Source of the DNA: Candidatus Ornithospirochaeta stercorigallinarum
Lineage (GTDB): Bacteria > Spirochaetota > Spirochaetia > Sphaerochaetales > Sphaerochaetaceae
NCBI GenBank assembly: GCA_018711525.1
Contig: DVIF01000047.1
Location: 1 to 54,850 of the forward strand
Direction: 5' to 3'
DNA: 54,850 nt
Every line of letters begins with the position of its first letter. Position 1 is the stretch's first letter. Made by a program: the position numbers and the translations under genes. Below are positions 343-19,108 of this stretch, piece after piece. The notes beneath the pieces were generated by a model. The model ran no database searches. It was not told the DNA's origin and worked only from the letters and a program-made list of their open reading frames with translations.

Positions 343-1308
343 ATGGCTGTTATGAAAAAAAAGTCCGCAGCGATGGATTTTGATGGAATGGCAGAACTAC
401 CGCTTTCTAAGAAGTTGAAGAAAGACTGGAGTAAGAATAAAGGTCTTTATCTTTTATTTGTTCCCGTCCTTCTTTGGTATCTGATATTCCAGTATGGACC
501 GATGATCGGTCTTTCCATTGCTTTTGAGGACTATAAACCAAGCCTTGGATTTTTCGGAAGCCCATTTGTAGGGTTCAAGCATTTCATTAATTTTTTCCAG
601 GATTTCTATTTTCAGAGGGTTTTCTTCAATACGATAAGGATTGCAGTCCTTACTCTCGTATGTACGTTCCCTGCCCCTATCATTCTGGCATTGCTCATAA
701 ATGAGCTGAAGAGCAGAAGATTGTCTAAATTCGTCCAGACAATCACATATATCCCTCATTTCATTTCGATTGTCGTTGTCGTTTCCATAATGATGGATCT
801 GACCGCCAGGGATGGAGCCATTACTTATTTTTTGAGCAAATTCGGTTTTGAACCGGTGACGATGCTCAATCAAAAGGAGTATTTCCTGCCGCTTTATATC
901 ATTTCCGCCATCTGGCAGAACATCGGTTGGAACTCCATAATCTATCTTTCCGCACTTACTTCAATTGATGCAGAGCTCTACGAGGCTGCACGCATCGATG
1001 GCGCCGGGAAATTCAGGCAGCTTGTTTCCGTGACTCTTCCGTGCCTTCTTCCCACCATCATAGTCATGCTCATACTTCAGGTCGGTAAGATGTTCAATGT
1101 CGGATATGAGAAGATCATATTGATGTACAATCCTCTGACTTATGAAGTTGCAGACGTAATCAATACATATGTCTACAGGAAAGGTCTTCTTGAGATGAAC
1201 TGGTCGTATTCTGCTGCGGTAGGATTCTTCAATTCCACTGTAAGCTTCCTGCTTGTATGGATTACAAACAAGTTCAGCAACCGTGTAAGCGGAAACAGTC
1301 TTTGGTAA
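343..1308 (+). CDS. lplB: ABC sugar transporter permease, LplB family
   Basis: This inner-membrane permease belongs to an oligosaccharide ABC importer of the LplB/YtcP type. The 321-residue protein has a basic cytoplasmic N-terminus, a first membrane span near residues 35-60, and several further spans. The EAA loop that docks the ATPase is visible near residues 212-235 (YEAARIDGAGK). The start is supported by GGAGGTT 5 nt upstream. It is the first gene of the long operon, 12 nt before the second permease. No ATPase gene lies in the cluster, so a shared MsmX-type ATPase elsewhere probably powers it, as is known for this family. The substrate is inferred from neighbours to be an oligosaccharide with uronate units. 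Confidence 0.9.
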   Translation: MAVMKKKSAAMDFDGMAELPLSKKLKKDWSKNKGLYLLFVPVLLWYLIFQYGPMIGLSIAFEDYKPSLGFFGSPFVGFKHFINFFQDFYFQRVFFNTIRIAVLTLVCTFPAPIILALLINELKSRRLSKFVQTITYIPHFISIVVVVSIMMDLTARDGAITYFLSKFGFEPVTMLNQKEYFLPLYIISAIWQNIGWNSIIYLSALTSIDAELYEAARIDGAGKFRQLVSVTLPCLLPTIIVMLILQVGKMFNVGYEKIILMYNPLTYEVADVINTYVYRKGLLEMNWSYSAAVGFFNSTVSFLLVWITNKFSNRVSGNSLW

Positions 1309-1320
1309 GAGGAGGGGGAT

Positions 1321-2199
1321 ATGAAAGTAAGAACAACGACGGGGGAGAAGATATTTGATGTCGTAAACGTCATCATATGTATTTTCCTGACACTGGCGGT
1401 TTTGATACCGATTTTGAACATCGTATTTGCATCCATTTCCGATCCTGTAGAGGTCATGAAGCATCAAGGGCTTTTCCTCTGGCCGAAGGGGTTTACGACA
1501 AAGGCATATGAGATTGTCGCCCAGAATCCGAATATCATTTCAGGGTACATGAATACAATCTTCATCGTTGTCGTCGGCACGGCATTGAATGTCCTGCTGT
1601 CCTTGATCGGTGCGTATGTACTCTCAAGAAAGGATGCGATGCTTGTGAAGATATTCACATTGATGATCGTCTTCACCATGTATTTCCAGGGGGGAACGAT
1701 TCCATTCTATCTGACGGTCCATACCTTGGGCCTTACAGGAACGATATGGTCACTGATCCTTCCTGTTGGAATCAATACATTCAATCTGATTGTAATGAGG
1801 ACTGCGATGGCCTCTGTTCCTGACAGCCTTCCAGAATCTGCGATGATAGATGGAGCTGGACATGCAAGAATCCTTTTCCAGATCATGACACCTCTGACGA
1901 AGGCCACTGTGGCGGTAATCACATTGTACTATGCAGTCTATCACTGGAATTCATGGTTCAATGCAATGATTTTCATCCGTGACAGGTCGCTCTATCCTCT
2001 GCAGCTTATTCTTCGTGAACTCCTGATCCAGGACGAGGCGAGCTTTGCTACGGCAGGAGGTTCGGATGCGCTAGCCCTTGCAAGTGATGCTGTCAAGTAT
2101 GCGACGATTGTTGTTGCTACTGTTCCTATTCTGATTGTCTACCCATTCCTCCAGAGATATTTTGTCAAAGGCGTTATGGTCGGTGCTGTAAAGGGGTGA
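1321..2199 (+). CDS. lplC: ABC sugar transporter permease, LplC/YtcP family
   Basis: This is the second membrane subunit of the importer (COG0395 type, 292 residues). A first span lies near residues 15-40, and an EAA-type loop near residues 168-190 reads PESAMIDGAGHARI. The C-terminus ends in the YFVKGVMVGAVKG pattern typical of the family. The start follows a GGAGGGGG ribosome-binding site. It is translated directly after the LplB-type subunit and 3 nt before the dehydrogenase gene, so transport and catabolism are in one message. The binding protein of the same importer is encoded further on at 6330. Confidence 0.9.
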   Translation: MKVRTTTGEKIFDVVNVIICIFLTLAVLIPILNIVFASISDPVEVMKHQGLFLWPKGFTTKAYEIVAQNPNIISGYMNTIFIVVVGTALNVLLSLIGAYVLSRKDAMLVKIFTLMIVFTMYFQGGTIPFYLTVHTLGLTGTIWSLILPVGINTFNLIVMRTAMASVPDSLPESAMIDGAGHARILFQIMTPLTKATVAVITLYYAVYHWNSWFNAMIFIRDRSLYPLQLILRELLIQDEASFATAGGSDALALASDAVKYATIVVATVPILIVYPFLQRYFVKGVMVGAVKG

Positions 2200-2202
2200 T
2201 GT

Positions 2203-3201
2203 ATGCGTATTGCTTATGATGACATGGTAAAGGAATTCGTAAGGGTTTTAAACAAATACGGGATTGAAGGGGAGGATGCGGTTGTTTCCGCAAAACTCTT
2301 TGCAGATGCATCGCGTGATGGTGTCCATACCCATGGGCTTCAGCGCTTTCCTAAATTCATTGCTTCCATCAAAAACGGATCTGTTGATGTTACCAAGCGT
2401 GCAGTCCCTGTAGAGAAGATCGGGATGATTGAGCGCTGGGACGGCCAGAGAGGACCAGGAAACCTCAATGCCTATATTTGCATGAACAGGGCGATTGAGC
2501 TGGCAAAGGCGAATGGTGTCGGTGTGGTTGCCCTTAGGAATACGAATCATTGGATGAGGCCAGGAAACTATGGTCTTATGGCTATCGATAATGACTGCAT
2601 CGGAATTCTCTGGACCAATACTGTTCCGAACATGCCTGCATGGGGAGGGAAGGAAGCAAAACTTGGCAACAACCCGATAGTGTTTGCTGTTCCTTACAAA
2701 GACAAACCTGTGATGGTGGATGTCGCAATGTCGATGTTCAGCTATGGCAAACTTGAAAAATACAAGAGGGAGGGTGTCTCGTGCCCTGTCGATGGCGGTA
2801 TTGATAAAGAAGGGAATATCACAAGGGATCCTTCCAAGATCCTTGAGACCCATCAGGTTTTGCCGATTGGATACTGGAAAGGTTCAGGGCTCTCATTAGT
2901 GCTGGACCTCATCGCCTCCTCTCTTTCCGGTGGCACCTATTCCCGTGGGGTGGGGAAATTGCCTGCGGAGACATCCTTGTCCCAGCTTTTCATCGTATTC
3001 GATCTCTCTGCGATGCCGGATAGGAAGCATATTGAAGAGGAGATCGGACTGACCCTTGCTGATATCGATTCATCAACTCCTGTCAAAGAGGGTTCCTCTG
3101 TCCATTACCCAGGGGAAGGAATGATGAAGACAAGGCAGGAAAGTATGAGCATCGGTGTGTTCGCAGATGACTCGCTTTGGAAGACAGTCCAGGAGCTTTG
3201 A
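2203..3201 (+). CDS. dlgD: YiaK-like 2,3-diketo-L-gulonate reductase
   Basis: This NAD(P)H-dependent oxidoreductase of the malate/lactate dehydrogenase-2 family has 332 residues, the same length I recall for E. coli YiaK. Matching motifs run through the whole chain: VHTHGLQRFPKF near residues 42-53, LRNTNHWMRPGNYG near 111-124, MSMFSYGKLE near 176-186, and GYWKGSGLSLVLD near 222-234. YiaK reduces 2,3-diketo-L-gulonate to 3-keto-L-gulonate; here a related keto-uronate or keto-aldonate is a reasonable substrate. The gene sits 3 nt after the permease gene and 1 nt before the next ORF. Family call is strong; exact substrate is inferred. Confidence 0.85.
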   Translation: MRIAYDDMVKEFVRVLNKYGIEGEDAVVSAKLFADASRDGVHTHGLQRFPKFIASIKNGSVDVTKRAVPVEKIGMIERWDGQRGPGNLNAYICMNRAIELAKANGVGVVALRNTNHWMRPGNYGLMAIDNDCIGILWTNTVPNMPAWGGKEAKLGNNPIVFAVPYKDKPVMVDVAMSMFSYGKLEKYKREGVSCPVDGGIDKEGNITRDPSKILETHQVLPIGYWKGSGLSLVLDLIASSLSGGTYSRGVGKLPAETSLSQLFIVFDLSAMPDRKHIEEEIGLTLADIDSSTPVKEGSSVHYPGEGMMKTRQESMSIGVFADDSLWKTVQEL

Positions 3202-3202
3202 T

Positions 3203-3943
3203 ATGTTGATTCCCGGTATTGTTTCAGCCACATTCAAGGAGAAAAGTGCAGAAGATGTGATCGCCTTATGCCTTAAAGCCGGACTGAAAGCCATCGAATG
3301 GAGCGAGAACTGGCATATAGCCGAAGGTGATGTGGAGGAGGCTGCGAGGATAGCTTCCCTTACAGCCATGAACAGCCTGTCTGTAGCTGCTTTCGGTTCT
3401 TATTATCGCCTGGGTGAGCATATGGACTTTTCTTCACGTATCCTTTGCGCAAAAGCCCTCGGGGCGGATGTGATAAGGATATGGGGAGGAGGAAAGCCTT
3501 CAAGTGAATTGACCGACTGCGAGAGGGCATCTCTGGTCGAGGAGGCCAGAAGTATTTCCTCTATGGCAGAGAAGGATGGACTCACAATCGCTCTTGAATG
3601 GCATAAAAATACGGTTACAGATACCAATGAGTCTGGATTGAATTTCTTGAAAGAGGTTTCAATGAGCAACTTCAAGACACTCTGGCAACCTACTCAGGTC
3701 TTGAGCATCCCAGAGCGTATCGAGGGGCTTGAAACACTTCAGGAATATCTGGTGAATCTTCATGTCTATTACTGGGATGACAGTGGTCGCCGCCCCCTCT
3801 CGGAAGGTGCAGAGATATGGAGAGAGTATCTGGATTGTGTTTCCGGGGAGCATTATGCTCTTCTGGAGTTCGTTAAGGATAATACGGTGGAGCAGTTCCT
3901 TTCAGATGCAAAGACGCTTCATGAATTAATTGATAGGAGTTAG
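3203..3943 (+). CDS. Sugar phosphate isomerase/epimerase-like TIM-barrel protein (first copy)
   Basis: This 246-residue protein is of the xylose-isomerase-like (AP endonuclease 2) fold. The start is the ATG at 3203, with AGGAG 7 nt upstream inside the end of the preceding gene; upstream in-frame codons lack a site. A likely metal-binding Glu lies in TIALEWHKN and another in YALLEFVKDN near the C-terminus. The usual central Asp-x-x-His segment is replaced by LWQPTQVLS, so the metal site may be altered. Related proteins isomerise or epimerise sugars, and some act as lyases on 3-keto-glycosides next to Gfo/Idh/MocA enzymes, which are also present here. Substrate unknown. Confidence 0.75.
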   Translation: MLIPGIVSATFKEKSAEDVIALCLKAGLKAIEWSENWHIAEGDVEEAARIASLTAMNSLSVAAFGSYYRLGEHMDFSSRILCAKALGADVIRIWGGGKPSSELTDCERASLVEEARSISSMAEKDGLTIALEWHKNTVTDTNESGLNFLKEVSMSNFKTLWQPTQVLSIPERIEGLETLQEYLVNLHVYYWDDSGRRPLSEGAEIWREYLDCVSGEHYALLEFVKDNTVEQFLSDAKTLHELIDRS

Positions 3944-3946
3944 GAA

Positions 3947-5173
3947 ATGGCAGATTTACATAGTGAAGCTTTCGATATGATCAATCCTTTTGTCATCGCA
4001 TCAAGCCCTGCGACAAGGGGAGCCGACAATGTACTTAGATGTGCGGAGTGCCGTCCAGGTGCGATTGTCCTTCGTAATTTCGGACATGGAATCGGCGGTG
4101 GTAGTTTCATCTACCCTTCAGCAGATGCCATGTACAAGGGGCAGCAGGCATTCCATTCACATGCAGTCGGTACGCAGAAGGCCGACTCCCTCGATTCCCT
4201 TGAAAAGTATTGCGAAGAGGTCAGGAAGATAAAAAAGAACATCTCCAGCGATATAAAGCTCTGGGTATCCATAGGGCACTACAGCGATATCGTTAAAGGT
4301 GGAGACTGGGATAAAGACTGGAAGAACCAGGCGAGAGAACTTAAGAATGCTGGAGCGGATGCTTTTGAACTTCATTTCAACACCCCGGGTGTTGCAGTTG
4401 CGAAAGACCGTCAGTTCAACTACTACCAGCTCGTATATAACTGCACGAAGATGATAAGGGAGACCGAGCCATCCGTGCCTGTGATGGTGAAGCTTGCCGT
4501 TGAGGCATGCGACCCTCTTACAGCGATCCGCCAGGCTGTTGCTGCCGGGGCTTCGGCTGTCGGACCTACTGCAAGATGGAAGGGATTCTATTTCGATCTC
4601 GATTGGAAGGGAACAGAAGCCCGTCCGGGTGCAGGATACGGCGGAACACAGTCCAATCCTATCGTCTGCTATGCTGTTGCAGAGGCCCGTTCGAAAGGAA
4701 TCGACATCCCGATGTTTGCAGGAGGCGGTGTCTTCTCTTATGATCAGGCTCTTCGCTATGTGATGGCAGGAAGCGACATGGTCCAGCTTGGAGCTCTTGC
4801 CTGCGCAGGTGGGCTCGGGGCAGTCAAGAGGGTGATCAAGGAATTCGGTGAGTGGATGGATAAGAATGGATACCCTGATATCAAATCCCTCAAGGGTGAC
4901 GCGCTTAAGCTTTTCAACATGGATCCTGCGTTTGCTAAAGCCAGACAGAACAAGCTTGGCGAGGCCTACCGTACCGCACAGGTCGATAGCGACAAGTGCA
5001 TAGGCTGCTCCAGATGCAGTGATGTCTGCTGGTATGATGGAATCCACATCCAGGACAGAAAGGCGAAAAAGACAGAGAACTGCATTGGTTGCGGCTACTG
5101 CTTCCAGGTATGTCCTACAGGTGCTCTTTTTGTGGAAAAGAAGAAGATCCTGGCTTCAGCTTTCGAGGATTGA
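3947..5173 (+). CDS. PreA-like flavoprotein with C-terminal double 4Fe-4S ferredoxin domain
   Basis: The 408-residue protein has an N-terminal dihydroorotate/dihydropyrimidine-dehydrogenase-like FMN barrel (about 1-330). A two-cluster ferredoxin domain follows: CIGCSRCSDVC near 351-361 and CIGCGYCFQVCP near 379-390. The first cluster motif lacks the usual trailing Pro. In dihydropyrimidine dehydrogenases the loop after ELNFSCPH carries the catalytic Cys; here the same place reads ELHFNTPGVAVAK, so pyrimidine reduction is unlikely. No PreT partner is next to it. In a sugar operon it more likely reduces an enone or keto intermediate, or passes electrons to the other flavoproteins. It starts 3 nt after the isomerase gene. 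Confidence 0.75.
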   Translation: MADLHSEAFDMINPFVIASSPATRGADNVLRCAECRPGAIVLRNFGHGIGGGSFIYPSADAMYKGQQAFHSHAVGTQKADSLDSLEKYCEEVRKIKKNISSDIKLWVSIGHYSDIVKGGDWDKDWKNQARELKNAGADAFELHFNTPGVAVAKDRQFNYYQLVYNCTKMIRETEPSVPVMVKLAVEACDPLTAIRQAVAAGASAVGPTARWKGFYFDLDWKGTEARPGAGYGGTQSNPIVCYAVAEARSKGIDIPMFAGGGVFSYDQALRYVMAGSDMVQLGALACAGGLGAVKRVIKEFGEWMDKNGYPDIKSLKGDALKLFNMDPAFAKARQNKLGEAYRTAQVDSDKCIGCSRCSDVCWYDGIHIQDRKAKKTENCIGCGYCFQVCPTGALFVEKKKILASAFED

Positions 5174-5174
5174 G

Positions 5175-6317
5175 ATGAAGAGTGTACGTGTGCTTCTAAT
5201 CGGGGTAGGAGGCTATGGGGAGAACTATCTGAAGGAGATGCTCGAAGAGGATATCCCTGATGCAGAGCTTGTTGCAATCGCCGATCCGTTTGCTTCAAAG
5301 AGTCAGTATATAGACGCGGTAAGAAGCAAAGGGATACCTGTCTTTTCCTCTCCGGCAGATTTCTATCTCAAGGGAGGGAAAGCCGATCTTGCGGTCATAT
5401 CCTCTCCGATTCATACCCACTATGACTACACAGTCATGGCTCTTGAGAATGATTCATCGGTCCTGGTTGAAAAGCCTGTTGTCATAAACACCTGCAAGAT
5501 GAGGGAGCTTATGGAAAAAGAGGAGAAGTCAGGACATTTCGTAGCGGTAGGGTATCAGCTTTGCTACTCAAGACATGTCCAGGAGCTGAAAAGGGATATC
5601 CTGAGTGGAATGTTTGGAGATCCGATACGTGCAAGGTCGCTGAGGCTGATGAGACGTGGTGACAAGTACTACGCACGAAACGGCTGGGCTGGAAAACTTT
5701 CATGCCATGGGGATTATGTCTTCGACAGTCCGCTTTCGAATGCCTGTGCGCATCAGGTCGAGAACATGCTTTATCTGCTCGGCCCTTCGTTTTCCGAGGC
5801 ATGCGATGTGACGAGCGTCGACGGCATACTTTACAAGGGAAGACCGGATATCCAGAATTTCGATGCAGCTGCGATAAGGATGCTCACCGATACAGGCATC
5901 CCCCTCTACTACTATACCGCCCATCCTGTGGATGCGGCGAAAATAGGTCCGATGAGTACGTTCGAGTTCTCAGATGCCGTTATTGAAGAATCCCAGGGGG
6001 GCTTTATTGCCGAATTCAATGACGGAAGAAGGAAGGAGTACCGCCCTCATGCCGAAGAGAAGAGGATGCAGAAGCTGTACGATGCCATTGCCTGTGTCAA
6101 GAGTGGAGAGAGGCCGGCTTGTACCCTTCAAGCATCGATTGGGCATATAAGCGTAGTACTGAAGACTGAGCAACTACCAGTGTATCTGCGTTATGACGCA
6201 GTCAGGAAGAGTGTGGATGATGATGGCTATTATTCAATTCCAGGGCTTGAAGATGAATTCACATCTTCCTATGAAAAATGGAAACTACCGGATAGGAGAT
6301 CCGGAAAAGAATACTAA
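5175..6317 (+). CDS. Gfo/Idh/MocA family oxidoreductase (first copy)
   Basis: The 380-residue NAD(P)-dependent sugar dehydrogenase starts at the ATG at 5175, 1 nt after the previous stop, with GAGGA upstream. The Rossmann motif GVGGYG is at residues 10-15 and the family EKP motif (LVEKPV) near residue 98. The usual active-site helix GGGxxxxxxxHxxD is replaced by SPLSNACAHQVENM: the His is kept but the following Asp is not in place. It may therefore act on a different ring position or group than the two other family members in this operon. Substrate unknown; it probably oxidises a sugar hydroxyl to a ketone. Confidence 0.8.
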   Translation: MKSVRVLLIGVGGYGENYLKEMLEEDIPDAELVAIADPFASKSQYIDAVRSKGIPVFSSPADFYLKGGKADLAVISSPIHTHYDYTVMALENDSSVLVEKPVVINTCKMRELMEKEEKSGHFVAVGYQLCYSRHVQELKRDILSGMFGDPIRARSLRLMRRGDKYYARNGWAGKLSCHGDYVFDSPLSNACAHQVENMLYLLGPSFSEACDVTSVDGILYKGRPDIQNFDAAAIRMLTDTGIPLYYYTAHPVDAAKIGPMSTFEFSDAVIEESQGGFIAEFNDGRRKEYRPHAEEKRMQKLYDAIACVKSGERPACTLQASIGHISVVLKTEQLPVYLRYDAVRKSVDDDGYYSIPGLEDEFTSSYEKWKLPDRRSGKEY

Positions 6318-6329
6318 AGGAGGAAAAAC

Positions 6330-7940
6330 ATGAAAACCATTAAAAGGTTAGCTGTTTTAGCACTCGTTTTCGTTCTTGTTCTTCCTGTTTTTGCAGGTGG
6401 ATCAAAGGAGAAGGCAACAACAGAAGATGGAAGACCTATAATTACGATGTGGGCTCCAATAAACCCTAACATCACACAGGTCGCACAGAGCTTCGATCAG
6501 ACTGCCTATTGGCAGGAGCTTATGGAGCGCACAGGTGTTCAGATTGAATTTGAGCATGCTTCATCAAGTAATGATTCCGTACTGACTGAGAATTTCAACA
6601 TTCTCATCGCTTCCGGCGATTATCCGGACATCATCCAGTACAAGTGGATTGATTACCCCGGCGGACCGGCGGCAGCAATTGCAGATGGCGTCATAATCCC
6701 TTTAAATGATGTCTTCGAGCAGTATTGTCCGAACATCACGGCATTCCTTGAATCACATCCTGATATCGCCAAGATGATTTCAACGGACGATGGAACGTAT
6801 TACTGCTTCCCGTTCCTCAGAGGCACAAGCTATGAGAACAACAATCTCCTCTTCTCCGAAGGATGGGTATGGAGGAAGGACCTTCTGGATAAGGCAGGTC
6901 TTGATGTCCCTGAGACACCGGAGGAGCTCTACGAGGCCCTTGTGGCTTTCAAGGAGATGGGCATTCAGATTCCTCTTTCAATCCGCCGCGACCACATCTC
7001 ACGTGTCCTTGCTCCTGGATTTGATTCATTCGGTGATTCGATTCAGAGCTTCTACGTAGTCGATGGTGTCGTACACAATGGATATGTCGAGGAGAACAGG
7101 AAGGAGTATCTCAAGTTTGCAAACAAGCTCTATGAAGAGGGACTTCTTGACAACGACTATCTTTCTGTAGACAAGAACAAGCTTGCAGTAAATGTTCTCA
7201 ACGGCCTCTGCGGTGCCGCATATGCTCCAGGCGGATCTGGAATCGGAACATGGCTACCTGCAATGAGACAATCGGATCCTTCCGTCGAGCTTGTTTCAGC
7301 TCGTCCTATCTCCCCTGAAAAGGGAAGGCTTTCAATGTTCGCAAAGATGAGCGACATCTATTCGAATACTGGTTCCTCATCTGCCATCACTACATCCTGC
7401 AAGGATATTGAAACAGTAGCCAGATTCCTCGATTTCTCATACTCAGAAGAAGGCATCCTCCTTGATAACTTCGGAATCGAAGGCGAAACATATGAGATGG
7501 TTGATGGCTATCCGAAGTATACGGATAAGATCGTACCTACATCTGATGATGGATTGACATCTGAAGGTTATACGATCAGTCAGGCGCTTTCCATGTATAC
7601 AAGGACCTATGCGACAGGTGGCTACATCCAGGATCCACGCTATCTTGAGCAGTACTACTCCCTGCCTGAACTTCAGGAGGCGATAAACCTCTGGGCTCAG
7701 ACAGATTACGGTAAGTACATCTATCCACCAGCATCCACAACCGCAGAGGAAGCATCTGAACTGGCATCCATCATGAACAGCATCAACACATATGTCGATG
7801 AGATGGAATCAAGGTTCATCACAGGTATTTCAGATATCGATGCAGAATGGGACGGCTATGTGGAGCAGCTCAAGAACTTCGGTATCGAAAGGGCGATTGA
7901 AATCAAACAGGAAGCCTACGACAGGTATATGTCAAAGTAG
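6330..7940 (+). CDS. lplA: ABC transporter extracellular sugar-binding protein, LplA type
   Basis: The 536-residue secreted solute-binding protein captures oligosaccharides for the LplB/LplC permeases. A basic N-terminus and hydrophobic core end in LPVFAGGSKEK, a cleavage pattern common in spirochaete binding proteins; no lipobox Cys is present, so it is probably periplasmic rather than lipidated. IASGDYPDIIQ near residues 90-105 and several aromatic segments fit family-1 sugar-binding proteins of the large LplA group. A strong AAAGGAGG site precedes the ATG. The gene is followed by a structured element (7950-7990) that may stabilise or process the message. Confidence 0.88.
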   Translation: MKTIKRLAVLALVFVLVLPVFAGGSKEKATTEDGRPIITMWAPINPNITQVAQSFDQTAYWQELMERTGVQIEFEHASSSNDSVLTENFNILIASGDYPDIIQYKWIDYPGGPAAAIADGVIIPLNDVFEQYCPNITAFLESHPDIAKMISTDDGTYYCFPFLRGTSYENNNLLFSEGWVWRKDLLDKAGLDVPETPEELYEALVAFKEMGIQIPLSIRRDHISRVLAPGFDSFGDSIQSFYVVDGVVHNGYVEENRKEYLKFANKLYEEGLLDNDYLSVDKNKLAVNVLNGLCGAAYAPGGSGIGTWLPAMRQSDPSVELVSARPISPEKGRLSMFAKMSDIYSNTGSSSAITTSCKDIETVARFLDFSYSEEGILLDNFGIEGETYEMVDGYPKYTDKIVPTSDDGLTSEGYTISQALSMYTRTYATGGYIQDPRYLEQYYSLPELQEAINLWAQTDYGKYIYPPASTTAEEASELASIMNSINTYVDEMESRFITGISDIDAEWDGYVEQLKNFGIERAIEIKQEAYDRYMSK

Positions 7941-7949
7941 GAGGCCTTT

Positions 7950-7990
7950 AGGGCAGGTCGGCCTAGGGGGGTTCGAATCCCCCCTGCCTT
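7950..7990 (+). ncRNA. tRNA-like minihelix (acceptor plus T arm) between two operon genes
   Basis: A 5-bp GGGGG/CCCCC stem (7967-7971 with 7979-7983) encloses TTCGAAT, so GTTCGAATC matches the tRNA T-loop consensus exactly. Bases 7950-7956 pair with 7984-7990 over 7 bp (one G-T pair), like an acceptor stem. Only 10 nt replace the D and anticodon arms, so it is not a translating tRNA. It lies in the 65-nt gap between the binding-protein and lyase genes. Possible roles are an RNase P or RNase Z processing site, an mRNA-stabilising hairpin, or a tRNA remnant left by integration. The fold is seen; the role is inferred. Confidence 0.5.
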
Positions 7991-8005
7991 AATATTGGAG
8001 AGATT

Positions 8006-10758: not shown

Positions 10759-11876
10759 TGGATAAGGTGAGAATCGGAATAATCGGCTTTGGAAAGATGG
10801 GGAGCCAGCACTCAAAGGCATTCAAGGACGGCAAGGTTCCAAATGCTGTCCTGACATGTGTGGCTGATATCGACCCGAAAAGAATCGATGCTGCGAAAGC
10901 TCTGTTGGGTGATGGCGTTTCATATTTTGACAACGCTGAGTCTTTGATCGCTTCCGGCAAGTGCGATGCTGTCATCCCTACAGTTCCGCATTACTATCAT
11001 CCAGTCTATGCCATCGAGGCATTTAACCATGGCCTGAACTATTTATGCGAGAAACCTGCTGGCGTATATACCAATCAGGTGAAGAGGATGAATGAGGCGG
11101 CAGCTGCTTCAGGAAAGGTGTTCGGCATAATGTATAATCAAAGGACCAATCCTGTCTATCAGAAGGCAAGGGACCTTGTAAGAAGCGGTGAGATCGGAGA
11201 GCTGCAGAGAACGAACTGGATCATTACCAACTGGTTCCGCTCTCAAAGCTATTACGACCAGAGCTCATGGAGAGCTACATGGAAAGGTGAGGGCGGTGGA
11301 GTCCTTCTGAACCAGAATCCACACAATCTCGATCTTTTCCAGTGGATCTGCGGAATGCCTTCCCGTGTGAAGGCGGAGATGTACTATGGCAAGTACAGGC
11401 ACCTTGAAGTCGAAGAGGAGGTATATGCCCTCGTCGAGTATCCTAATGGTGCGACCGGGTGCTATATCACTACGATTGCCGATTCCCCGGGGACGAACAG
11501 ATTTGAAATCACCGGCACGAAGGGAAAGCTTGTGATAGAGAACGACAAGATTGAGTTTTTCAGGTTGAGGAAAGACACTGTCTCCTTCAATGAGGAGTAT
11601 AAGGGTGGTATAGGGCAGCCGGAATGCTGGAGATGTGAGATTCCTGTGAAGGGGACATATACATCACATCCCGGCCTGATAAAGAATTTCTGTGATGCGA
11701 TTCTGACCGGCTCTCCTCTGCTTGCTCCGGGAGAGGAGGGAATACTCGGCCTTTCGATATCAAATGCGATGCATCTTTCATCGTGGCTTGGCAGCAAGTG
11801 GATAGATCTTCCTATAGACGGGGATCTCTACGAGGCTGAGCTCAAGAAGAAATGTGGTGGGGAGCTTCCAGCTTGA
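10758..11876 (+). CDS. Gfo/Idh/MocA family oxidoreductase (second copy)
   Basis: The 372-residue NAD(P)-dependent dehydrogenase starts at the ATG at 10758, sharing one base with the previous stop, with GGAGG 6 nt upstream. Features are GFGKMG near residues 10-15, LCEKPAGVYTNQ near 95-106 and the active-site segment GGGVLLNQNPHNLDLFQW near 179-196, which keeps the family His and Asp. It is a typical member of the inositol/glycoside dehydrogenase superfamily. In this operon it probably oxidises a sugar ring hydroxyl, perhaps C3 of a glycoside, ahead of elimination or epimerisation. Substrate inferred only from context. Confidence 0.85.
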   Translation: MDKVRIGIIGFGKMGSQHSKAFKDGKVPNAVLTCVADIDPKRIDAAKALLGDGVSYFDNAESLIASGKCDAVIPTVPHYYHPVYAIEAFNHGLNYLCEKPAGVYTNQVKRMNEAAAASGKVFGIMYNQRTNPVYQKARDLVRSGEIGELQRTNWIITNWFRSQSYYDQSSWRATWKGEGGGVLLNQNPHNLDLFQWICGMPSRVKAEMYYGKYRHLEVEEEVYALVEYPNGATGCYITTIADSPGTNRFEITGTKGKLVIENDKIEFFRLRKDTVSFNEEYKGGIGQPECWRCEIPVKGTYTSHPGLIKNFCDAILTGSPLLAPGEEGILGLSISNAMHLSSWLGSKWIDLPIDGDLYEAELKKKCGGELPA

Positions 11877-11878
11877 AT

Positions 11879-14092
11879 ATGGAAAAGAAGAGGAGTTTCA
11901 AGCGCAATACAATGAAGACATGGGGTATTTCATACTTCATGCTCTTCATCATGCCCCTCCTCTTCTTCATCGTTTTCATAACCGTCAGCATCGAGGTTTT
12001 AAGGAGTGAGATAGCCCATTACAATCAGCTGGCGGTAATGCATGTAGGCTCTATTTTCGATAGCAGCTTCTCTCAGATAAACTCATCTGCGGAAGACATA
12101 TTGTTGAACAACAGGTTCAGCAACATATTCTCATCCGATCCATTTTCCATTCCTGTATATAATCTCTACCAGAGTGCGGCTGAGCTTTCACGTCTTGGCA
12201 GCCAGGATGTGGATGGCGGAACACTGTTCATCTATTCACCATCCCGTGATTTCTTCATCGGAGGAATGAAGTTCGGACATATCGATGATGTCAGCGACTT
12301 GATAGAATTCAATCTGGGAAGTCCGAATACAAACGTCCCGGATATATTCCATAAGAATTTGGAAAGAATGGAGATTTATGATATCTCCTACACATATACC
12401 TCTGGAAACACTGTGAAACGCATCCTGATAACCCGTCCGCTGAGCTATGTCAAATCAAGCCCGGTCGGTGATTACTGCATAGCGCAGATTGTCAATCTCA
12501 GTACCCTTCTAGGTGCCAATACCGAGTTTGATGCATATCACAATCTTATGATCTTCAACCGGCTGGATGGGAATCTTGCATATGCAATCTCTCCATCGGT
12601 TCCAGGTGATGTGAAATTAAGTACGATCACAGCAAATGGAATTGATAAAGGAAACATCATCGCCATCGCCCCCTCGGATGTCTCGAATTTCATTTATGCA
12701 ATCATGATCGACCGTTCTGAATATTTCCATCCGATGCGCATAATGGAGATCATAGCGGTGGTATATTTCTTCTTCACATTGATTCTTGGAATATTCCTTG
12801 TCCTGAGGCTTGTAAGGAAAAGCTGGAGTGAACTTGAAGATGCCATGCGTCAATCCGGTGCCGATACGGACCTGGATGCAGGAGACGGGGTGTATTCGCC
12901 TTTCATCTCCTCTCTTTCCCGTCTTGAAAAGGAGAAGGAGGGGCTGAGCATAATGGTAAGTGCACAGTCCCGGTCCTTGAAGATGAACATGATCGACAGG
13001 CTTTTGTCATCTGCCGATGCTTCCATAATCAGCGAGAATGCATTAAAGGAGTGCGGAATAGAATTCTCCTCCGACTCTTTCATAGTATATCTGGCCCTTG
13101 ATGAGAACGAAGATGTCGTGAATGCCCTGATGGATGCAGGCATTCATACATATCCTTTTTCCTCTTCGTATGCCATGTCTTTGATCCTGAATCTTGGCAA
13201 AGGCTCTGATGAAGCTGCTGCGATGGAGAAGATCAGTGAGATTGCAAATGAGAAAAGGAATAATGCCGCCTCTTCAGACATCGTACACGGCCTGGAGATG
13301 ATCGGGCAGGCATATATAGATGCAATAAATACGATTGACTATAAGAAGGAGAATTCATTCTCCGAGTTCGTCGCATGCTCGGATGTGACTGCGATATCGA
13401 GCAAGGTTCAGTATTCATTCCCTTCCGATTGCGCATACAACCTCCAGAAATATGTGAAGGATGGACGCTCTGATGATGCAGTGAGCCTTATAAGGGATCT
13501 GTTTATGACGAATCAGGCAGCAGGTGTTCCCCCCAGGCATCTGAGGTATCTTCTCCTCTCGATTTCAAACAGGGTCCTGAAGATGAGCCTGCAGCTGGAA
13601 GGCGTATACGGATCTGATGTCGGCATATTCTCACCCCCTCAGATCCTGGAGGCACGTAAAAGCGTGGAGTCGATCCGTCTGGAGCTGGAAGGAAGGGTAT
13701 ACAGGTATGTTGAGAAGATCCTCTCGGCCAGGAACATGCTGGGGGATGTGAATGATGAGACCTACATGATCTATCAGAAGGTGCTTAGGGAGATCAGCGA
13801 AAGATATTCGCAGTCGATGTTCAATGTCTCATCTCTTGCTGATGACCTGGGAGTGACGCTTGCATATCTGTCAAAGGTCTTCAAACGCTATCACAAGATG
13901 AACATCTCAGACTACCTGGCTCATTACAGGGTGGATGGTGCGAGGAAGCTGCTTGAAGAGGGGGTTGCCCTCTCCCAGGTTGCAGAGCAGTGTGGATTCG
14001 GCTCCCTGCGCACATTCATGAGGGTATTCAAGAAGGTCGAGGGTGTGTCCCCCGGACAATACAGGCAATTCAACATGGAGGAAAGGACATGA
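11879..14092 (+). CDS. Membrane-anchored AraC-family transcriptional regulator
   Basis: About 737 residues. A first membrane span (YFMLFIMPLLFFIVF) near residues 15-38 and a second near 280-305 (IAVVYFFFTLILGIF) enclose a sensor domain outside the membrane. A cytoplasmic region and a C-terminal double helix-turn-helix domain follow (about 645-735: SSLADDLGVTLAYLSKVFK and later VAEQCGFGSLRTFMRVFKK). This is the layout of Bacillus YtdP-type regulators found beside LplB/YtcP importers. It likely senses extracellular oligosaccharide and controls this operon. The start is uncertain: ATG 11879 is given, but TTG 11873, which overlaps the upstream stop and has GGAG at 8 nt, is equally good. Its stop overlaps the next start (ATGA). 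Confidence 0.88.
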   Translation: MEKKRSFKRNTMKTWGISYFMLFIMPLLFFIVFITVSIEVLRSEIAHYNQLAVMHVGSIFDSSFSQINSSAEDILLNNRFSNIFSSDPFSIPVYNLYQSAAELSRLGSQDVDGGTLFIYSPSRDFFIGGMKFGHIDDVSDLIEFNLGSPNTNVPDIFHKNLERMEIYDISYTYTSGNTVKRILITRPLSYVKSSPVGDYCIAQIVNLSTLLGANTEFDAYHNLMIFNRLDGNLAYAISPSVPGDVKLSTITANGIDKGNIIAIAPSDVSNFIYAIMIDRSEYFHPMRIMEIIAVVYFFFTLILGIFLVLRLVRKSWSELEDAMRQSGADTDLDAGDGVYSPFISSLSRLEKEKEGLSIMVSAQSRSLKMNMIDRLLSSADASIISENALKECGIEFSSDSFIVYLALDENEDVVNALMDAGIHTYPFSSSYAMSLILNLGKGSDEAAAMEKISEIANEKRNNAASSDIVHGLEMIGQAYIDAINTIDYKKENSFSEFVACSDVTAISSKVQYSFPSDCAYNLQKYVKDGRSDDAVSLIRDLFMTNQAAGVPPRHLRYLLLSISNRVLKMSLQLEGVYGSDVGIFSPPQILEARKSVESIRLELEGRVYRYVEKILSARNMLGDVNDETYMIYQKVLREISERYSQSMFNVSSLADDLGVTLAYLSKVFKRYHKMNISDYLAHYRVDGARKLLEEGVALSQVAEQCGFGSLRTFMRVFKKVEGVSPGQYRQFNMEERT

Positions 14093-15096
14093 GGAAACTA
14101 AGGACTGCCGTCATTGGTTGTGGTGCGGTATCGCGTAACCATGGAAAGGCGTTGAAAGATAACAAATACACGGATCTCGTAGCTGCTGTCGATATCGATT
14201 TGGAGAAGGCCCGGGCTTTTGCCGAGACCTATGGTGGCATTCCGATGACGGATTACCGCGCTCTTGCTGATATGGACATTGATGTCGCTCATGTCGTGAC
14301 ACCACATAATACGCATCCTGAGATCGCAATTCATCTCATGGAGCGGGGTATCAATGTCTTTTGTGAGAAGCCTCTTGCAATAAACGCCTATGATGCAGAA
14401 AGGATGATTGCTGTCAGTGAGAGGACGGGTACGCATCTTGGTGTCTGCTTCCAGAACAGGATGAACAAGGCGAGTATTGAAGCAAAGGAGATCATAGATG
14501 ACGGGCGCTATGGAAAGATTGTCAGCGCCATGGCCCTTGTAGCCTGGGACAGACATGGAAAATATTATTCGGAAAGTCCATGGCGTGGAACATATCGGGG
14601 GGAAGGTGGTGGCTGTATCATCAACCAGTCGATCCATACACTGGATCTCCTCAACTACCTCACAGGAGGGGTGGCATCCCTCTCTGCCTTCTCAGGTAAA
14701 TTGAGGGATACAGGAGACTATGAGGTTGATGACACATCTGCAATCCTGTTCCACCTGAAGAACGGGGCAACCGCAGTAGGCTTTTGCACCAATTGTTATC
14801 CCGAATCCAAGATCTGTACTGTCGAGATCCATCTTGAAAAAGCAACCCTCACAGTCAGACAGAGCGGGCTGACGATAGCTCAAGAGGATGGGAATGTCGT
14901 TTTCCATCCCGCAGAGACCCTCAAGGGGGAGAAATCGGAGTGGGGGATATCCCACGGTGTGTTGATAAACGAATTCTATAAATCCATTGTCGAAGGCTCA
15001 GACTTCATCGCAGACTGCCACACAGGTCTTGCGGCAGTCAGGATTGTCAATGCAATCCAGCATTCGAATGGAAAGGAAATATATATTGGAGGTTGA
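14089..15096 (+). CDS. Gfo/Idh/MocA family oxidoreductase (third copy)
   Basis: The 335-residue NAD(P)-dependent dehydrogenase starts at the ATG overlapping the regulator stop, with GAGGAAAGG upstream. Motifs are VIGCGAVSRNHG near residues 8-19, FCEKPLAINAYDAERM near 91-106 and GGGCIINQSIHTLDLLNYL near 174-192, with family His and Asp in place. It is closest in layout to the second copy (10758) and differs from the first (5175). Three family members in one operon suggest sequential oxidation of different residues or positions of an oligosaccharide. Substrate unknown. Confidence 0.85.
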   Translation: MRKLRTAVIGCGAVSRNHGKALKDNKYTDLVAAVDIDLEKARAFAETYGGIPMTDYRALADMDIDVAHVVTPHNTHPEIAIHLMERGINVFCEKPLAINAYDAERMIAVSERTGTHLGVCFQNRMNKASIEAKEIIDDGRYGKIVSAMALVAWDRHGKYYSESPWRGTYRGEGGGCIINQSIHTLDLLNYLTGGVASLSAFSGKLRDTGDYEVDDTSAILFHLKNGATAVGFCTNCYPESKICTVEIHLEKATLTVRQSGLTIAQEDGNVVFHPAETLKGEKSEWGISHGVLINEFYKSIVEGSDFIADCHTGLAAVRIVNAIQHSNGKEIYIGG

Positions 15097-15097
15097 A

Positions 15098-16462
15098 ATG
15101 GCAGAACACGAGAAATTCAATTTCAAGACATTGGATGAATTGAGAGAGCGTATAGAAGAATTGAAGGTGGACATACAGCTTGATGAGGACACATCAATCC
15201 TGTCCACACCTGTTAAGATCAAGGGTAGGACATGCAGCAACCGTTTTGCCGTCCTTCCTATGGAAGGCTGCGACAGCGAAACAGATGGATCTCCCTCTGC
15301 TCTTGTTAAAAACCGTTATGAGAGGTTCTTCCTCGGAGGCTCAGGACTTGTATGGTGGGAGGCAAATGCTGTCGTAGAGGAGGGCAAGGCGAATGAGCAT
15401 CAGATGATGATTACTCCTGATAACCTTCCTTCGTTCAAGGCTCTTCTTGAAGAGCTGAAGGGAAAAAGCCTTGATAAGAACGGCTATGCTCCAATCTCCG
15501 TGCTGCAGCTGACGCATTCTGGAAGATATTCCCGCCCACACGGGCATAAGGCTGCTCCGATCATTGCCCAGCATGATCCCATCCTGGATCCCCGTGTAGG
15601 TCTTAAGGGGGATGAACCTGTCGTAAGTGATGAGTATCTCTCTTCATTGCCTGCGTATTATGCTAAATCTGCAGAACTTGCAAGGGAGGCGGGTTTTGAT
15701 GGTGTTGATGTCAAAGCCTGCCATAGGTATCTTCTTTCGGAAATCCTTGCATCCCATACCAGGGAGGGAAGCTATGGCGGGAGTTTTGAAAATAGGATAA
15801 GACTTATCCTGGATATCATCAGGGAGATCAGGAGAAGAGTCGGTGATGACTTCATCATAGCATCAAGATTCAATGTGTTTGATGCCCATCCGTATCCATA
15901 TGGTTTCGGAGAGGACAAGGATGATATGTGGAGATTCGACAGCACTGAGCCTATGGAGCTTGTCCGTCGTATGATAAAGGAAGGTGTCTCCCTCCTTTCA
16001 AATTCGGCAGGCAACCCTTATTACATATATCCTCAGGTCACGAGACCTTTTGATTTGTCTTCAATGGGAATACCGACACCTGATGAGCATCCACTTGAGA
16101 GCATCTCCCGTCTTTTTGAATTCACAGAGGAGATTCAGAAAGCAGCCGGGGATGTGCCTGTGATCGGCAACGGCTATTCCTGGCTCAGACAGTTCATTCC
16201 ATATGCTGCAAGTGCGAATATCAGGAATGGAAGATGCACGATGGTCGGGCTTGGGAGGTCTGCCATAGCTTACCCAGATGCACCGGCAGATGTACTTTCT
16301 GCACGTATGATGGATAGCCGTAAATGCTGTATAACATGCTCGAAGTGCACTCAGATCATGAGGGACCATGGAATGACAGGATGTGTCGTCCGCAACAGCG
16401 GAATCTACGCTGAACTCTACAGAAAATACAGAAAGGAAGCGGAGGAGAGGGAAAATGGCTAA
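15098..16462 (+). CDS. Old-Yellow-Enzyme-like flavoprotein with Fe-S cysteine cluster
   Basis: The 454-residue protein matches the FMN barrel of NADH:flavin oxidoreductases/2,4-dienoyl-CoA reductases: VLPMEGCD near residue 48, QLTHSGRYSRP near 143-153, FDGVDVKACHRYLLSEILAS near 202-221 and GGSFENR near 228. A cysteine set near 409-428 (CCITCSKC then C) corresponds to the 4Fe-4S site between the barrel and the missing FAD/NAD domain of dienoyl-CoA reductases (about 670 residues). It therefore needs an outside electron donor, possibly the PreA-like or FAD protein of this operon. Such enzymes reduce C=C bonds next to carbonyls. Start supported by GGAGG 5 nt upstream; it overlaps the next gene by 8 nt. 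Confidence 0.82.
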   Translation: MAEHEKFNFKTLDELRERIEELKVDIQLDEDTSILSTPVKIKGRTCSNRFAVLPMEGCDSETDGSPSALVKNRYERFFLGGSGLVWWEANAVVEEGKANEHQMMITPDNLPSFKALLEELKGKSLDKNGYAPISVLQLTHSGRYSRPHGHKAAPIIAQHDPILDPRVGLKGDEPVVSDEYLSSLPAYYAKSAELAREAGFDGVDVKACHRYLLSEILASHTREGSYGGSFENRIRLILDIIREIRRRVGDDFIIASRFNVFDAHPYPYGFGEDKDDMWRFDSTEPMELVRRMIKEGVSLLSNSAGNPYYIYPQVTRPFDLSSMGIPTPDEHPLESISRLFEFTEEIQKAAGDVPVIGNGYSWLRQFIPYAASANIRNGRCTMVGLGRSAIAYPDAPADVLSARMMDSRKCCITCSKCTQIMRDHGMTGCVVRNSGIYAELYRKYRKEAEERENG

Positions 16463-17222
16463 GATTGCAATAGTCACAGGTGGTTGCAGAGGCATAGGGC
16501 TTGCGATATCAAAACGGCTAGCACATGACGGCTATCAGGTTGTCACCGCAGGGAGGAAAGGAGTGCAGGATGTAAAAGATGCTTTGACATCCATTGCCTC
16601 TGAAGGGCTCTCCCCCCTTTATGTGCAGGCTGATGTATCGCTTTCAGATGATAGGAAGAGGATCCTCTCTCAAACCATAAAGGAGTTCGGAAGGGTCGAC
16701 CTTCTTGTAAACAATGCCGGTGTGGCCCCCCGTGAGAGGAAGAACATACTTGAGATGAGTGAAGAGAGCTGGGATTATGTCATTGATACCAATACGAAAT
16801 CGAACATGTTCATGACCCAGCTGGTGGCGAATGCAATGCTTGAGCAGGATGTCATATACAACAAGAGGGGGACGATCATAAACATATCATCATGTTCCGC
16901 TGAAGTTTCTTCACCGAACAGGGCGGAATACTGTGTTTCAAAGGCCGGCATATCAATGCTGACAAAACTTTATGCCGATGCCCTTGCCCCTTACGGAGTC
17001 TATGTCCATGAGATACGCCCTGGTGTGATTCATTCAGATATGACTGAGTGTGTGGAGGAAAAGTATTCCAGACTGATAGAAGATGGCGTCTTCCCGATTG
17101 CACGCTGGGGTGAAGGGGCGGATGTTGCATCAGCCGTTTCTGTTTTCGCTTCCGATGAATTGCTTTATACGACAGGTAACTACATCGATGTGGATGGTGG
17201 CTTCCATATAAGGAGTCTCTGA
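16455..17222 (+). CDS. Short-chain dehydrogenase/reductase, FabG-like
   Basis: The 255-residue classical SDR has the cofactor motif TGGCRGIG at residues 8-15, NNAGVAP near 88-94, Ser in INISSCSAE near 143 and the catalytic YCVSK near 158-162. The C-terminal TGNYIDVDGGFHI is typical. These enzymes interconvert a ketone and an alcohol with NAD(P)H. In this setting it may act on a keto-sugar or keto-deoxy acid, as KduD does in unsaturated uronate catabolism, but the sequence does not prove this. The start lies inside the end of the flavoprotein gene, with GGAGGAGAGG upstream, and the stop overlaps the next start. Confidence 0.85.
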   Translation: MAKIAIVTGGCRGIGLAISKRLAHDGYQVVTAGRKGVQDVKDALTSIASEGLSPLYVQADVSLSDDRKRILSQTIKEFGRVDLLVNNAGVAPRERKNILEMSEESWDYVIDTNTKSNMFMTQLVANAMLEQDVIYNKRGTIINISSCSAEVSSPNRAEYCVSKAGISMLTKLYADALAPYGVYVHEIRPGVIHSDMTECVEEKYSRLIEDGVFPIARWGEGADVASAVSVFASDELLYTTGNYIDVDGGFHIRSL

Positions 17223-19108
17223 TGGGAACTATGGATATCGAGACCGTTATCGTAGGTACCGGTGCCAGTGGATATAATGCAGCTGATGTTCTTTCATCTC
17301 TTTTTGTGAAGGATTTTGCAATCATTACGGAGGGGGTTAAGGCAGGTACAAGCCGTAATACAGGTTCGGACAAGCAGACATATTATAAGCTGTCGCTTTC
17401 AGGAATGGACTCAGACAGCGTCAGGCTTATGGCCTCCGACCTTTTCAATGGACAGTGTGTGGATGGTGATAACGCCCTTGTTGAAGCATCACTATCCGCC
17501 CCGTCGTTCATACGGCTTTCAAATCTGGGTGTTCCTTTCCCTCAGAACAGATATGGCGAATACATCGGATATAAAACGGATCATGACCCGTATCGCAGGG
17601 CGACAAGCGTAGGGCCGTATACATCGAAACTGATGACGGAGGCCTTGGAGAGATCCGTAATGGAGAAAGGCGTCAGGATAATCGATGGCTATCAGATGGT
17701 GAGAATCATCGTTGAAGACAATGAATTGAAGGGTGCTGTATTCGTAGAGAGGAAGAGCGGAAGATTCCTTCTTATCAGGATGAGGAATTTAATCCTTGCG
17801 ACAGGGGGACCGGCTGGAATGTACATGATGAGTGTATACCCGTCAAGTCAGTTCGGGGCATCAGGCATTGCATTTGAAGCTGGATGCAAGGCCCAGAACC
17901 TTACAGAATGGCAGTATGGTCTTGCTTCCGTCCGCCCAAGATGGAATGTCTCAGGCTCATATATGCAGGTGCTGCCTCGCTTTCTCTCAATCGATGATGA
18001 AGGAGAGGAGCATGATTTCCTTTTCGATTATCCAATAGATAAAGGGGACATGCTTACAAGAATCTTCCTCAAGGGCTACCAGTGGCCTTTTGATGTAAGG
18101 AAGCTATACAGCGGCTCCTCCGTAATAGATATCCTTTGTTACCTCGAGCTTGAGAAGGGCAGGCGGGTCTTCCTTGATTACATCCATAATCCTCTCAAAG
18201 AGGAAATCGATTATGAAATCCTCTCTCCAGAAGCCCGTGAGTATCTCTATTCCTCATCTTCCATCGCACCAAATCCTGTCGAGAGGCTGAGGAGGATGAA
18301 CGAGCCTGCATACCAGTTCTACCTTGAGCATGGTGTGGATCTTGAAAAAGAATATCTGGAGATTTCTCTTTCCGCCCAGCACAATAACGGAGGAATTGCC
18401 GTGGATGCATGGTGGCGGTCAAGTGTGGAAGGCATTTTCGCGGTCGGAGAGGCTGCAGGCACACATGGTGTGTATCGTCCAGGTGGAAGTGCTCTCAATG
18501 CCGGTCAGGTCGGCTCAAAAAGGGCATCTGAATACATTGCCATGCATAGGACCGGCAATTGGGTGAAAAAAGAAATCCGCCCGGAAGAGATATCTTTTAT
18601 AGATGAGATCGTCCAGAATGCGTTAAGAGGCACTCTTGACCTGAATAGTGAATATGATGAAGCACGGCTGAGAATGAGTCTTCATGGTTCCTGTCTGAGA
18701 AACAGGGAAGGGCTGGAGAAAGCTCTTGCTGAAACAGAGTCCGCTCTTGATTCCTTCTCTTTAGTCCATGCAGAGGCAAGTACACTCTGGAAACTTTTTG
18801 AATACAGGACAGCCCTTGTTTCCCAGAAGATATATCTATCTGCAATGCTCGATTACGCCTCACATAATCTTGGAAGCAGGGGAAGTGCGGTCTATAGCGA
18901 TGATGACGGGGAACTCCAGCCTCCTGCCATGGATGATAGATTCCGACATAGCCTTCAGAAGGATGAACACCCTATGATACAGATGGCAGAGCTTGAAAAA
19001 GATGGAAAGGTATCGATTTCATATAGAAATCCCCGCCCGATACCACAAGAGGAAGAAGCTTTTGAAGTTGTCTGGGCACGCTATAGAAAAGACAAGTGTA
19101 TTTATTAA
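17222..19108 (+). CDS. FAD-dependent oxidoreductase, fumarate reductase/L-aspartate oxidase-like
   Basis: The 628-residue soluble flavoprotein has an N-terminal FAD-binding motif (VIVGTGASGYNAADV, residues 9-23), a second FAD segment NLILATGGPAG near 190-200 and HNNGGIAVDAWWRSSVEGIFAVGEAAG near 383-410 (split here for reading). It ends in a helical C-terminal domain like that of succinate dehydrogenase flavoproteins. Family members reduce or oxidise C-C bonds next to carboxylates. No Fe-S or membrane subunit follows, so it probably works in the cytoplasm with the operon's other flavoproteins. AGGAG lies 6 nt before the ATG, which overlaps the SDR stop. Last gene before the terminator. Substrate unknown. 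Confidence 0.75.
   Translation: MGTMDIETVIVGTGASGYNAADVLSSLFVKDFAIITEGVKAGTSRNTGSDKQTYYKLSLSGMDSDSVRLMASDLFNGQCVDGDNALVEASLSAPSFIRLSNLGVPFPQNRYGEYIGYKTDHDPYRRATSVGPYTSKLMTEALERSVMEKGVRIIDGYQMVRIIVEDNELKGAVFVERKSGRFLLIRMRNLILATGGPAGMYMMSVYPSSQFGASGIAFEAGCKAQNLTEWQYGLASVRPRWNVSGSYMQVLPRFLSIDDEGEEHDFLFDYPIDKGDMLTRIFLKGYQWPFDVRKLYSGSSVIDILCYLELEKGRRVFLDYIHNPLKEEIDYEILSPEAREYLYSSSSIAPNPVERLRRMNEPAYQFYLEHGVDLEKEYLEISLSAQHNNGGIAVDAWWRSSVEGIFAVGEAAGTHGVYRPGGSALNAGQVGSKRASEYIAMHRTGNWVKKEIRPEEISFIDEIVQNALRGTLDLNSEYDEARLRMSLHGSCLRNREGLEKALAETESALDSFSLVHAEASTLWKLFEYRTALVSQKIYLSAMLDYASHNLGSRGSAVYSDDDGELQPPAMDDRFRHSLQKDEHPMIQMAELEKDGKVSISYRNPRPIPQEEEAFEVVWARYRKDKCIY

Follow-up and report, generated by a model that had tools for sequence, protein, structure and literature searches.

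A glycoside can be primed for elimination at C1 by oxidising its C3, with hydration and reduction following, and operons for this oxidation-elimination-hydration-reduction sequence have been described for puerarin (dgp, strain PUE), for levoglucosan (Bacillus smithii) and from Agrobacterium (AtOGE) (PMC10628242). The three operons combine Gfo/Idh/MocA oxidoreductases with TIM barrels of the sugar-phosphate-isomerase type. The same combination is found at positions 343-19108 of the window analysed here, which is the whole of contig DVIF01000047.1 (C33; 54,850 bases) from the 1.93-Mb, 82.86% complete genome of Candidatus Ornithospirochaeta stercorigallinarum. This operon holds three Gfo/Idh/MocA proteins (GFO1, GFO2 and GFO3) and two TIM barrels (TIM1 and TIM2) beside an OYE-like flavoprotein, an SDR and an FAD protein, and differs from those three in a core that also contains a YiaK-like reductase, an iron-sulphur flavoprotein resembling PreA and a polysaccharide lyase. 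The kduI/kduD and dhuI/dhuD pathways share its expected start, a 4,5-unsaturated uronate (PMC12838403); the operon differs from the kduI/kduD pathway in that none of its 15 proteins matched KduI in Pfam or NCBIfam, a search that did not cover DhuI, and KduI is encoded elsewhere in the genome. The operon appears to be a variant of the known oxidation-elimination pathways with a lyase and a flavin reductase, a combination that would be unusual should enzyme tests bear it out.

The lyase and the PreA-like protein occur together

We searched 451 genomes for both proteins, 60 of them relatives (the organism's own genome included) and 391 from one other class, in which only the best few first-look candidates per genome were scored. 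The lyase (at least 52% identity) and the PreA-like protein (at least 69%) were found together in eight of the 451, and neither occurred alone at those levels. Six of the 60 relatives carry lyase orthologs (52-100%) and exactly those six carry PreA-like orthologs (73-100%); less strict thresholds brought up heparinases of 33% identity or less in another 14 of the 60, with one further 55-residue piece at 40%, and PreA-like matches at 33-34% in two. In the other class, both proteins were present at E ≤ 1e-60 in two genomes only (G321 and G390). Fisher's test, with kinship ignored, gave 2.5e-17 for the 451 genomes and 2.0e-8 for the 60; the finding of both proteins in a second class carries more weight than this test. 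The link between lyase and PreA-like protein is strong.

Ten operons were compared, eight on the spirochaete side (the window, G035, G029, G022, G013, G011 and those of two named Spirochaetales/Spirochaetaceae metagenome-assembled genomes, L074+L138 and L075+L137, each read as adjoining stretches) and two in the other class (L117+L157 and L118+L158). L074 and L075 came from a scan with the FAD protein as query, to which operons lacking FAD are invisible. The PreA-like and YiaK-like proteins, GFO1, GFO2, TIM1 and TIM2 are linked with the lyase in all ten, the YiaK-like gene being partial at a contig end in G013 and the G011 operon being split between two contigs, both of which break off within the binding-protein gene; GFO3 is present in nine, G011 being cut. 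The OYE-like protein is linked in six, within the operon in four and upstream and divergent in G321 and G390, where it has 45-47% identity and lies beyond an opposite-strand gene (AraC-type by Pfam in G321). The SDR and FAD genes are found in seven, and the FAD gene of G013 is on another contig that starts inside the gene. The operon is real, and its core is conserved across phyla. It can also be lost as one block, since in G031 the sequence passes from the middle of the FAD gene into a truncated GH43 gene, matching the G022 arrangement with about 18 kb gone (L039 compared with L023/L024).

An earlier note on this DNA made its reading depend on whether the flavoprotein and Gfo genes accompany the lyase in other genomes. 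Such co-occurrence holds for the PreA-like, YiaK-like, GFO and TIM proteins in two bacterial groups and for the OYE-like protein in six operons of ten, and fails for the FAD protein.

Candidate enzymes of 3-keto chemistry, lyase cleavage and ene reduction

GFO2 is a full-length relative of PDB entry 8TDI, named P2B11 Glucuronide-3-dehydrogenase (E 1.4e-97, residues 2 to 369, 44.6% identity over 390 columns), and by this homology represents the glycoside or uronoside 3-dehydrogenase expected of an oxidation-elimination operon. These data suggest uronoside 3-oxidation by GFO2, the best-supported step of the pathway proposed below; the next PDB match reaches only 7e-29. 3-keto chemistry, as put forward in the earlier note, is well supported by the same homology, which suggests a uronide as its substrate. 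P2B11 is reportedly linked with a 2024 Nature paper on alternative glycan breakdown, and a search of the open-access (PMC) literature found no paper describing it. Relatives of GFO2 (E ≤ 1e-80) occur in 114 of the 391 genomes of the Clostridia-type class (the class of G062). The 37 such loci that were read, from 35 of the 114 genomes, comprise two with lyase and PreA-like genes, two others with OYE, SDR and FAD genes, and a remainder with neither.

GFO3 is a more distant 8TDI relative (4.8e-33) that also matches DgpA, a solved Gfo-type protein (2.4e-23), while GFO1 has weak PDB matches only and is 34% identical in the two distant operons (G321 and G390); judged by sequence, both are candidates for reductases returning the 3-keto sugar. 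A PDB search with TIM1 gave one weak match (AsbF, 1.3e-6). TIM2 keeps E/D/H/E, presumably metal ligands, in 16 of 16 sequences and shares its fold with ketose 3-epimerases and with the 3-keto-D-glucoside 4-epimerase YcjR (PDB 6WN6) of the E. coli ycj cluster; it is 18% identical to YcjR, and ketose 3-epimerases rank nearer.

The lyase carries both Pfam domains of the heparinase II/III fold and aligns with heparinase III in the PDB at E 4.8e-38, with N210, Y264 and H416 matched. The corresponding Asn, Tyr and His are the active-site residues of lyases of this fold and are invariant in the eight of the ten orthologs that were aligned. The fold named in the earlier note is confirmed, and inspection revealed no signal peptide, consistent with the cytoplasmic location given there.

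The PreA-like protein resembles PreA of dihydropyrimidine dehydrogenase, which is among its PDB matches, in joining a DHOD domain to 4Fe-4S motifs, and its ELHFNTPG motif and eight Cys are invariant in the eight of ten orthologs aligned. It differs in scoring 117.7 bits against a PreA cut-off of 335 and in having no PreT-like gene among the 15 of the operon. The YiaK-like protein exceeds the cut-off of the equivalog model for YiaK, 3-dehydro-L-gulonate 2-dehydrogenase (Table 1). No FAD/NADPH domain was found in the OYE-like protein.

The SDR and FAD proteins form an independent pair

The earlier note had grouped all three flavoproteins together. The FAD protein instead forms an independent pair with the SDR, whose gene lies directly upstream in 49 of 51 database loci, and the lyase was present in two of the 51 (within stretches of up to 10 kb on either side, some shorter). 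These 51 loci are a biased sample, because the scan relied on exact matches to peptide words from the window's protein; Actinobacterial genes in them were called roughly, by a simple codon-position score, and one record contributes two almost identical copies, L043 and L045. Within the genus, the FAD protein (at least 50% identity) occurs in nine of 36 genomes (own included), five of the nine being among the six lyase genomes (Fisher 1.3e-4, kinship ignored), and it is absent from three of the ten lyase operons as read. We rejected the FAD protein as belonging to the lyase: there is an association within the genus and not a bond, and the link is weak.

The FAD protein has the FrdA/SdhA fold, and its best score among the matches listed is 107.8 against a family cut-off of 718. 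In G029 the FAD gene is followed by a galactarate/altronate dehydratase and a DHDPS-type aldolase; ILVD/EDD and KDPG aldolase genes lie near the pair in G014; and in Cellulomonas the genes within 10 kb include those for glucuronate isomerase, KDPG aldolase and a protein resembling fructuronate reductase that scores under cut-off. The pair may be an accessory module for sugar-acid oxidoreduction.

Four loci of the same genus (L025, L027, L028 and L032) carry FAD-SDR-OYE, or FAD-SDR with dehydratase genes, and have no lyase nearby; three of the four also encode a small Cupin_2 protein that we take to be KdgF-like. In two loci of the Clostridia-type class (L125 and L129), OYE, SDR and FAD genes lie beside GFO2 and glycerol genes, namely a glycerol-3-phosphate antiterminator with a partial oxidase-like gene in one and Fe-ADH_2 with an FGGY kinase in the other; these neighbours hint that the substrate there is linked to glycerol.

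A proposed pathway for imported uronic oligosaccharides

Our preferred reading, to which we give a probability of about 0.4, is a catabolic operon for an imported oligosaccharide containing uronic acid, with a plant cell-wall type favoured over a glycosaminoglycan. As family knowledge suggests, the ABC importer would take up the oligosaccharide. The cytoplasmic lyase, to judge by its fold and conserved residues, would then β-eliminate the C4 group of the uronate to leave a 4,5-unsaturated uronosyl residue, and GFO2 would oxidise the uronoside at C3 with NAD. By analogy with the puerarin, levoglucosan and Agrobacterium glycoside operons, a TIM barrel could draw on the 3-keto group for an epimerisation or elimination at C1/C2, freeing the C1-linked sugar without a hydrolase, and GFO1 or GFO3 with the other TIM barrel could complete or reverse the oxidation. 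The PreA-like protein, with the OYE-like protein where present, might reduce the ring C=C made by the lyase, and the YiaK-like enzyme the resulting 2-oxo acid; as the neighbouring genes suggest, the products would enter sugar-acid dehydratases and 2-keto-3-deoxy aldolases. Because the lyase would leave a C4=C5 bond, the 3-keto intermediate would be an enone, which is the kind of compound that ene reductases naturally accept. The coupling of lyase cleavage, ene reduction and 3-keto elimination that the earlier note inferred would make chemical sense.

The nature of the substrate is suggested by the neighbours of the operon in other genomes. A GH43 gene, identified by Pfam, stands upstream in divergent orientation in five of six readable spirochaete relatives (G035, G022, G011, L138 and L137), and GH106 family proteins are encoded near both operons of the other class, so that one or the other family stands near seven of the eight relatives' operons with readable upstream sequence. 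The substrate therefore leans towards a plant-type uronic oligosaccharide. This part of the reading rests on the relatives, because GH43 is absent from the 1,047 bases upstream in G029, which hold a tRNA-Asp gene, and no GH43 start is present in the 342 bases upstream in the window.

Those two absences weigh against the proposed pathway, as do several other observations. Dihydropyrimidine dehydrogenase has an NxSCP motif with the catalytic cysteine; ELHFNTP stands in its place in the PreA-like protein, and ene reduction is for that reason unproven. The FAD protein is missing from three operons as read: the G011 genome gave no match to the FAD protein (the place of the SDR is cut), and the G321 and G390 loci read contain neither SDR nor FAD. 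The OYE-like gene is not in the G029 operon (a 39% copy lies elsewhere), has no match at E ≤ 1e-20 in G011 and is absent from the loci read of the two named spirochaete genomes. Since each is missing from several lyase operons, neither the OYE-like nor the FAD protein can be essential. TIM2 is nearest to epimerases, and the matches listed for it include no named 3-keto lyase. In the open-access (PMC) literature we found no published activity of the operon proteins, no paper joining heparinase II, a Gfo/isomerase operon and uronic sugars, and none joining uronic acid with an FAD-dependent enzyme of such kind. The genome also holds, outside the operon, genes that could take the lyase product, which are considered below.

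A more specific version of the pathway, which we regard as improbable, is that the lyase (C4=C5) and 3-keto elimination (C1=C2) act on one uronate residue to give comenate (5-hydroxy-4-oxo-4H-pyran-2-carboxylate), with the PreA-like protein, driven by ferredoxin, returning the pyrone to central metabolism. As a structural formula, a 3-keto uronate that carries the two double bonds would be this stable, aromatic-like γ-pyrone, and an iron-sulphur flavoprotein of the dihydropyrimidine dehydrogenase type would be suited to reducing such a heteroaromatic ring. If true, this would explain why the PreA-like protein is never found apart from the lyase. The papers on comenate listed in the open-access (PMC) literature concern chemistry, pharmacology, physiology and pain or neuroscience.

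Standard uronate genes and alternative functions

The earlier note had concluded that the locus works without the usual uronate pathway, from the lack of kduI, kdgK and kdgA. The observation is true of the operon alone. Elsewhere in the genome, contig C28 encodes KduI (NF002091, 420.6 bits; cut-off 250). The gene after it encodes an SDR that fits the gluconate 5-dehydrogenase model best (484 against 369) and stays under the KduD cut-off (260 against 369). Contig C80 encodes a KDPG aldolase (TIGR01182, over cut-off) adjoining a sugar kinase of the PfkB family with a likeness to KDG kinase, over the Pfam PfkB cut-off and under all NCBIfam cut-offs listed. There are three GH88/GH105 matches, strong on C87 and C88 and just over cut-off on C67 (28.7 bits against 26.6). 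A genome lacking the standard pathway was accordingly rejected, and the argument from absence fails because genes of the standard route are present.

It is conceivable, if unlikely, that the lyase product is handled conventionally by these GH88/GH105, KduI/KduD-type, KdgK and Eda functions, with the operon oxidoreductases serving another sugar, for instance a methylated uronide or an unusual one. The genes are there, the kinase by resemblance alone, and more distant heparinases in the genus have GH88 within a few kilobases (G032, G030 and G003). However, the operon contigs of the six panel genomes with the lyase gave no GH88 match, nor did the other four operons, by inspection only; moreover, lyase orthologs never occur without the PreA-like protein in the 451 genomes.

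We consider it distinctly unlikely that the three flavoproteins, instead of working on the sugar, reduce an unsaturated aglycone set free from a glucuronide, such as a phenolic enoate or another enoate, making the operon a scavenger of glucuronide conjugates. Compounds reduced by OYE-, PreA- and fumarate-reductase-like proteins elsewhere include enoates and aromatic-like rings, the relative of GFO2 is named for glucuronides, and OYE-SDR-FAD sits with GFO2 in L125 and L129 with no lyase nearby. Yet the neighbours in those two loci are glycerol genes rather than aromatic-acid genes, a polysaccharide lyase belongs to the core, and GH43 or GH106 flanks most relatives' operons.

Glycosaminoglycan degradation, as the heparinase name would imply, is improbable and was rejected as first choice: the best named NCBIfam and PDB matches of the lyase are heparin-sulfate lyases and GH43 is missing upstream in G029 and the window, but scores against the NCBIfam HepC models (PL12) fall far under cut-off (149 against 700 and 117 against 600), no sulfatase or GH88 match was found among the 15 operon proteins, and GH43 or GH106 accompanies nearly all readable relatives.

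Operon layout and neighbouring genes

The first operon gene starts 342 bases after the start of the contig, and the 15 genes run in the order of Table 1, mostly overlapping or a few bases apart. The earlier note had counted 13 proteins; the regulator of the AraC family is among the 15. Its description of one co-oriented run of mostly overlapping genes stands, and Pfam and NCBIfam bore out the classes that it named, from permeases and binding protein to the three Gfo/Idh/MocA enzymes, two TIM barrels, YiaK-like protein, SDR and three flavoproteins. The AraC-family protein (746 residues) lies inside the gene run, its open reading frame extending from 11852 with a likely start at 11879. The sole larger intergenic gap, of about 65 bases, separates the binding-protein and lyase genes and contains a stem-loop; terminator-like sites in the operon region showed no excess over shuffled sequence.

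Table 1. Genes and one structural feature of the operon, in order along the window
Feature	Position	Strand	Evidence
ABC sugar permease 1	343..1308	+	PF00528 over cut-off; in 9/10 lyase operons (G013 contig ends before gene)
ABC sugar permease 2	1321..2199	+	PF00528 just below cut-off; GlcU/UgpE-like in NCBIfam
YiaK-like Ldh_2 2-oxo acid reductase	2203..3201	+	NF009750, 391.4 bits against cut-off 316; 10/10 lyase operons
TIM1, AP_endonuc_2 sugar isomerase-like	3203..3943	+	PF01261; 10/10 lyase operons
PreA-like flavoprotein, DHOD-type FMN domain and two 4Fe-4S motifs	3947..5173	+	Pfam/NCBIfam
GFO1, divergent Gfo/Idh/MocA oxidoreductase	5175..6317	+	PF01408 only
Solute-binding protein	6330..7940	+	PF01547
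Stem-loop, 8 pairs, between binding-protein and lyase genes	7964..7986	+	Sequence scan
Cytoplasmic heparinase II/III-fold lyase	8006..9991	+	PF16889, PF07940
TIM2, ketose-epimerase-like, conserved metal-type site	9988..10758	+	Fold and conserved residues
GFO2, glucuronide-3-dehydrogenase relative	10758..11876	+	8TDI match, E 1.4e-97
AraC-family regulator, long N-terminal part	11879..14092	+	PF12833
GFO3, Gfo/Idh/MocA oxidoreductase	14089..15096	+	Pfam; 8TDI 4.8e-33, DgpA 2.4e-23
OYE-like flavoprotein, C-terminal Cys motif	15098..16462	+	PF00724; CITCSKC at 411
SDR of SDR-FAD pair	16455..17222	+	NF009386, 293.8 against cut-off 250
FAD protein, FrdA/SdhA/NadB fold, FAD_binding_2	17222..19108	+	Fold

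The operon is followed by a lipoprotein-like open reading frame of 208 residues (19359-19985) with no Pfam match and, on the minus strand (20141-23884), by ordinary genes for diaminopropionate ammonia-lyase, GalE and a phosphohexomutase. In the other class, two PmbA/TldD metallopeptidase genes (Pfam) follow the core operon at L117:273-3040, and similar open reading frames occupy the same place in L118.

Implications for uronate breakdown

If the proposed pathway is true, polysaccharide lyases and the oxidation-elimination route would be parts of one pathway and not alternatives, adding a lyase-linked branch to uronate breakdown. An iron-sulphur ene reductase would gain a place in sugar catabolism, and a function would be given to a group of flavoproteins whose best models name pyrimidine enzymes. 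Because the GFO2 family is common among the Clostridia-type genomes, the oxidation step may be widespread.

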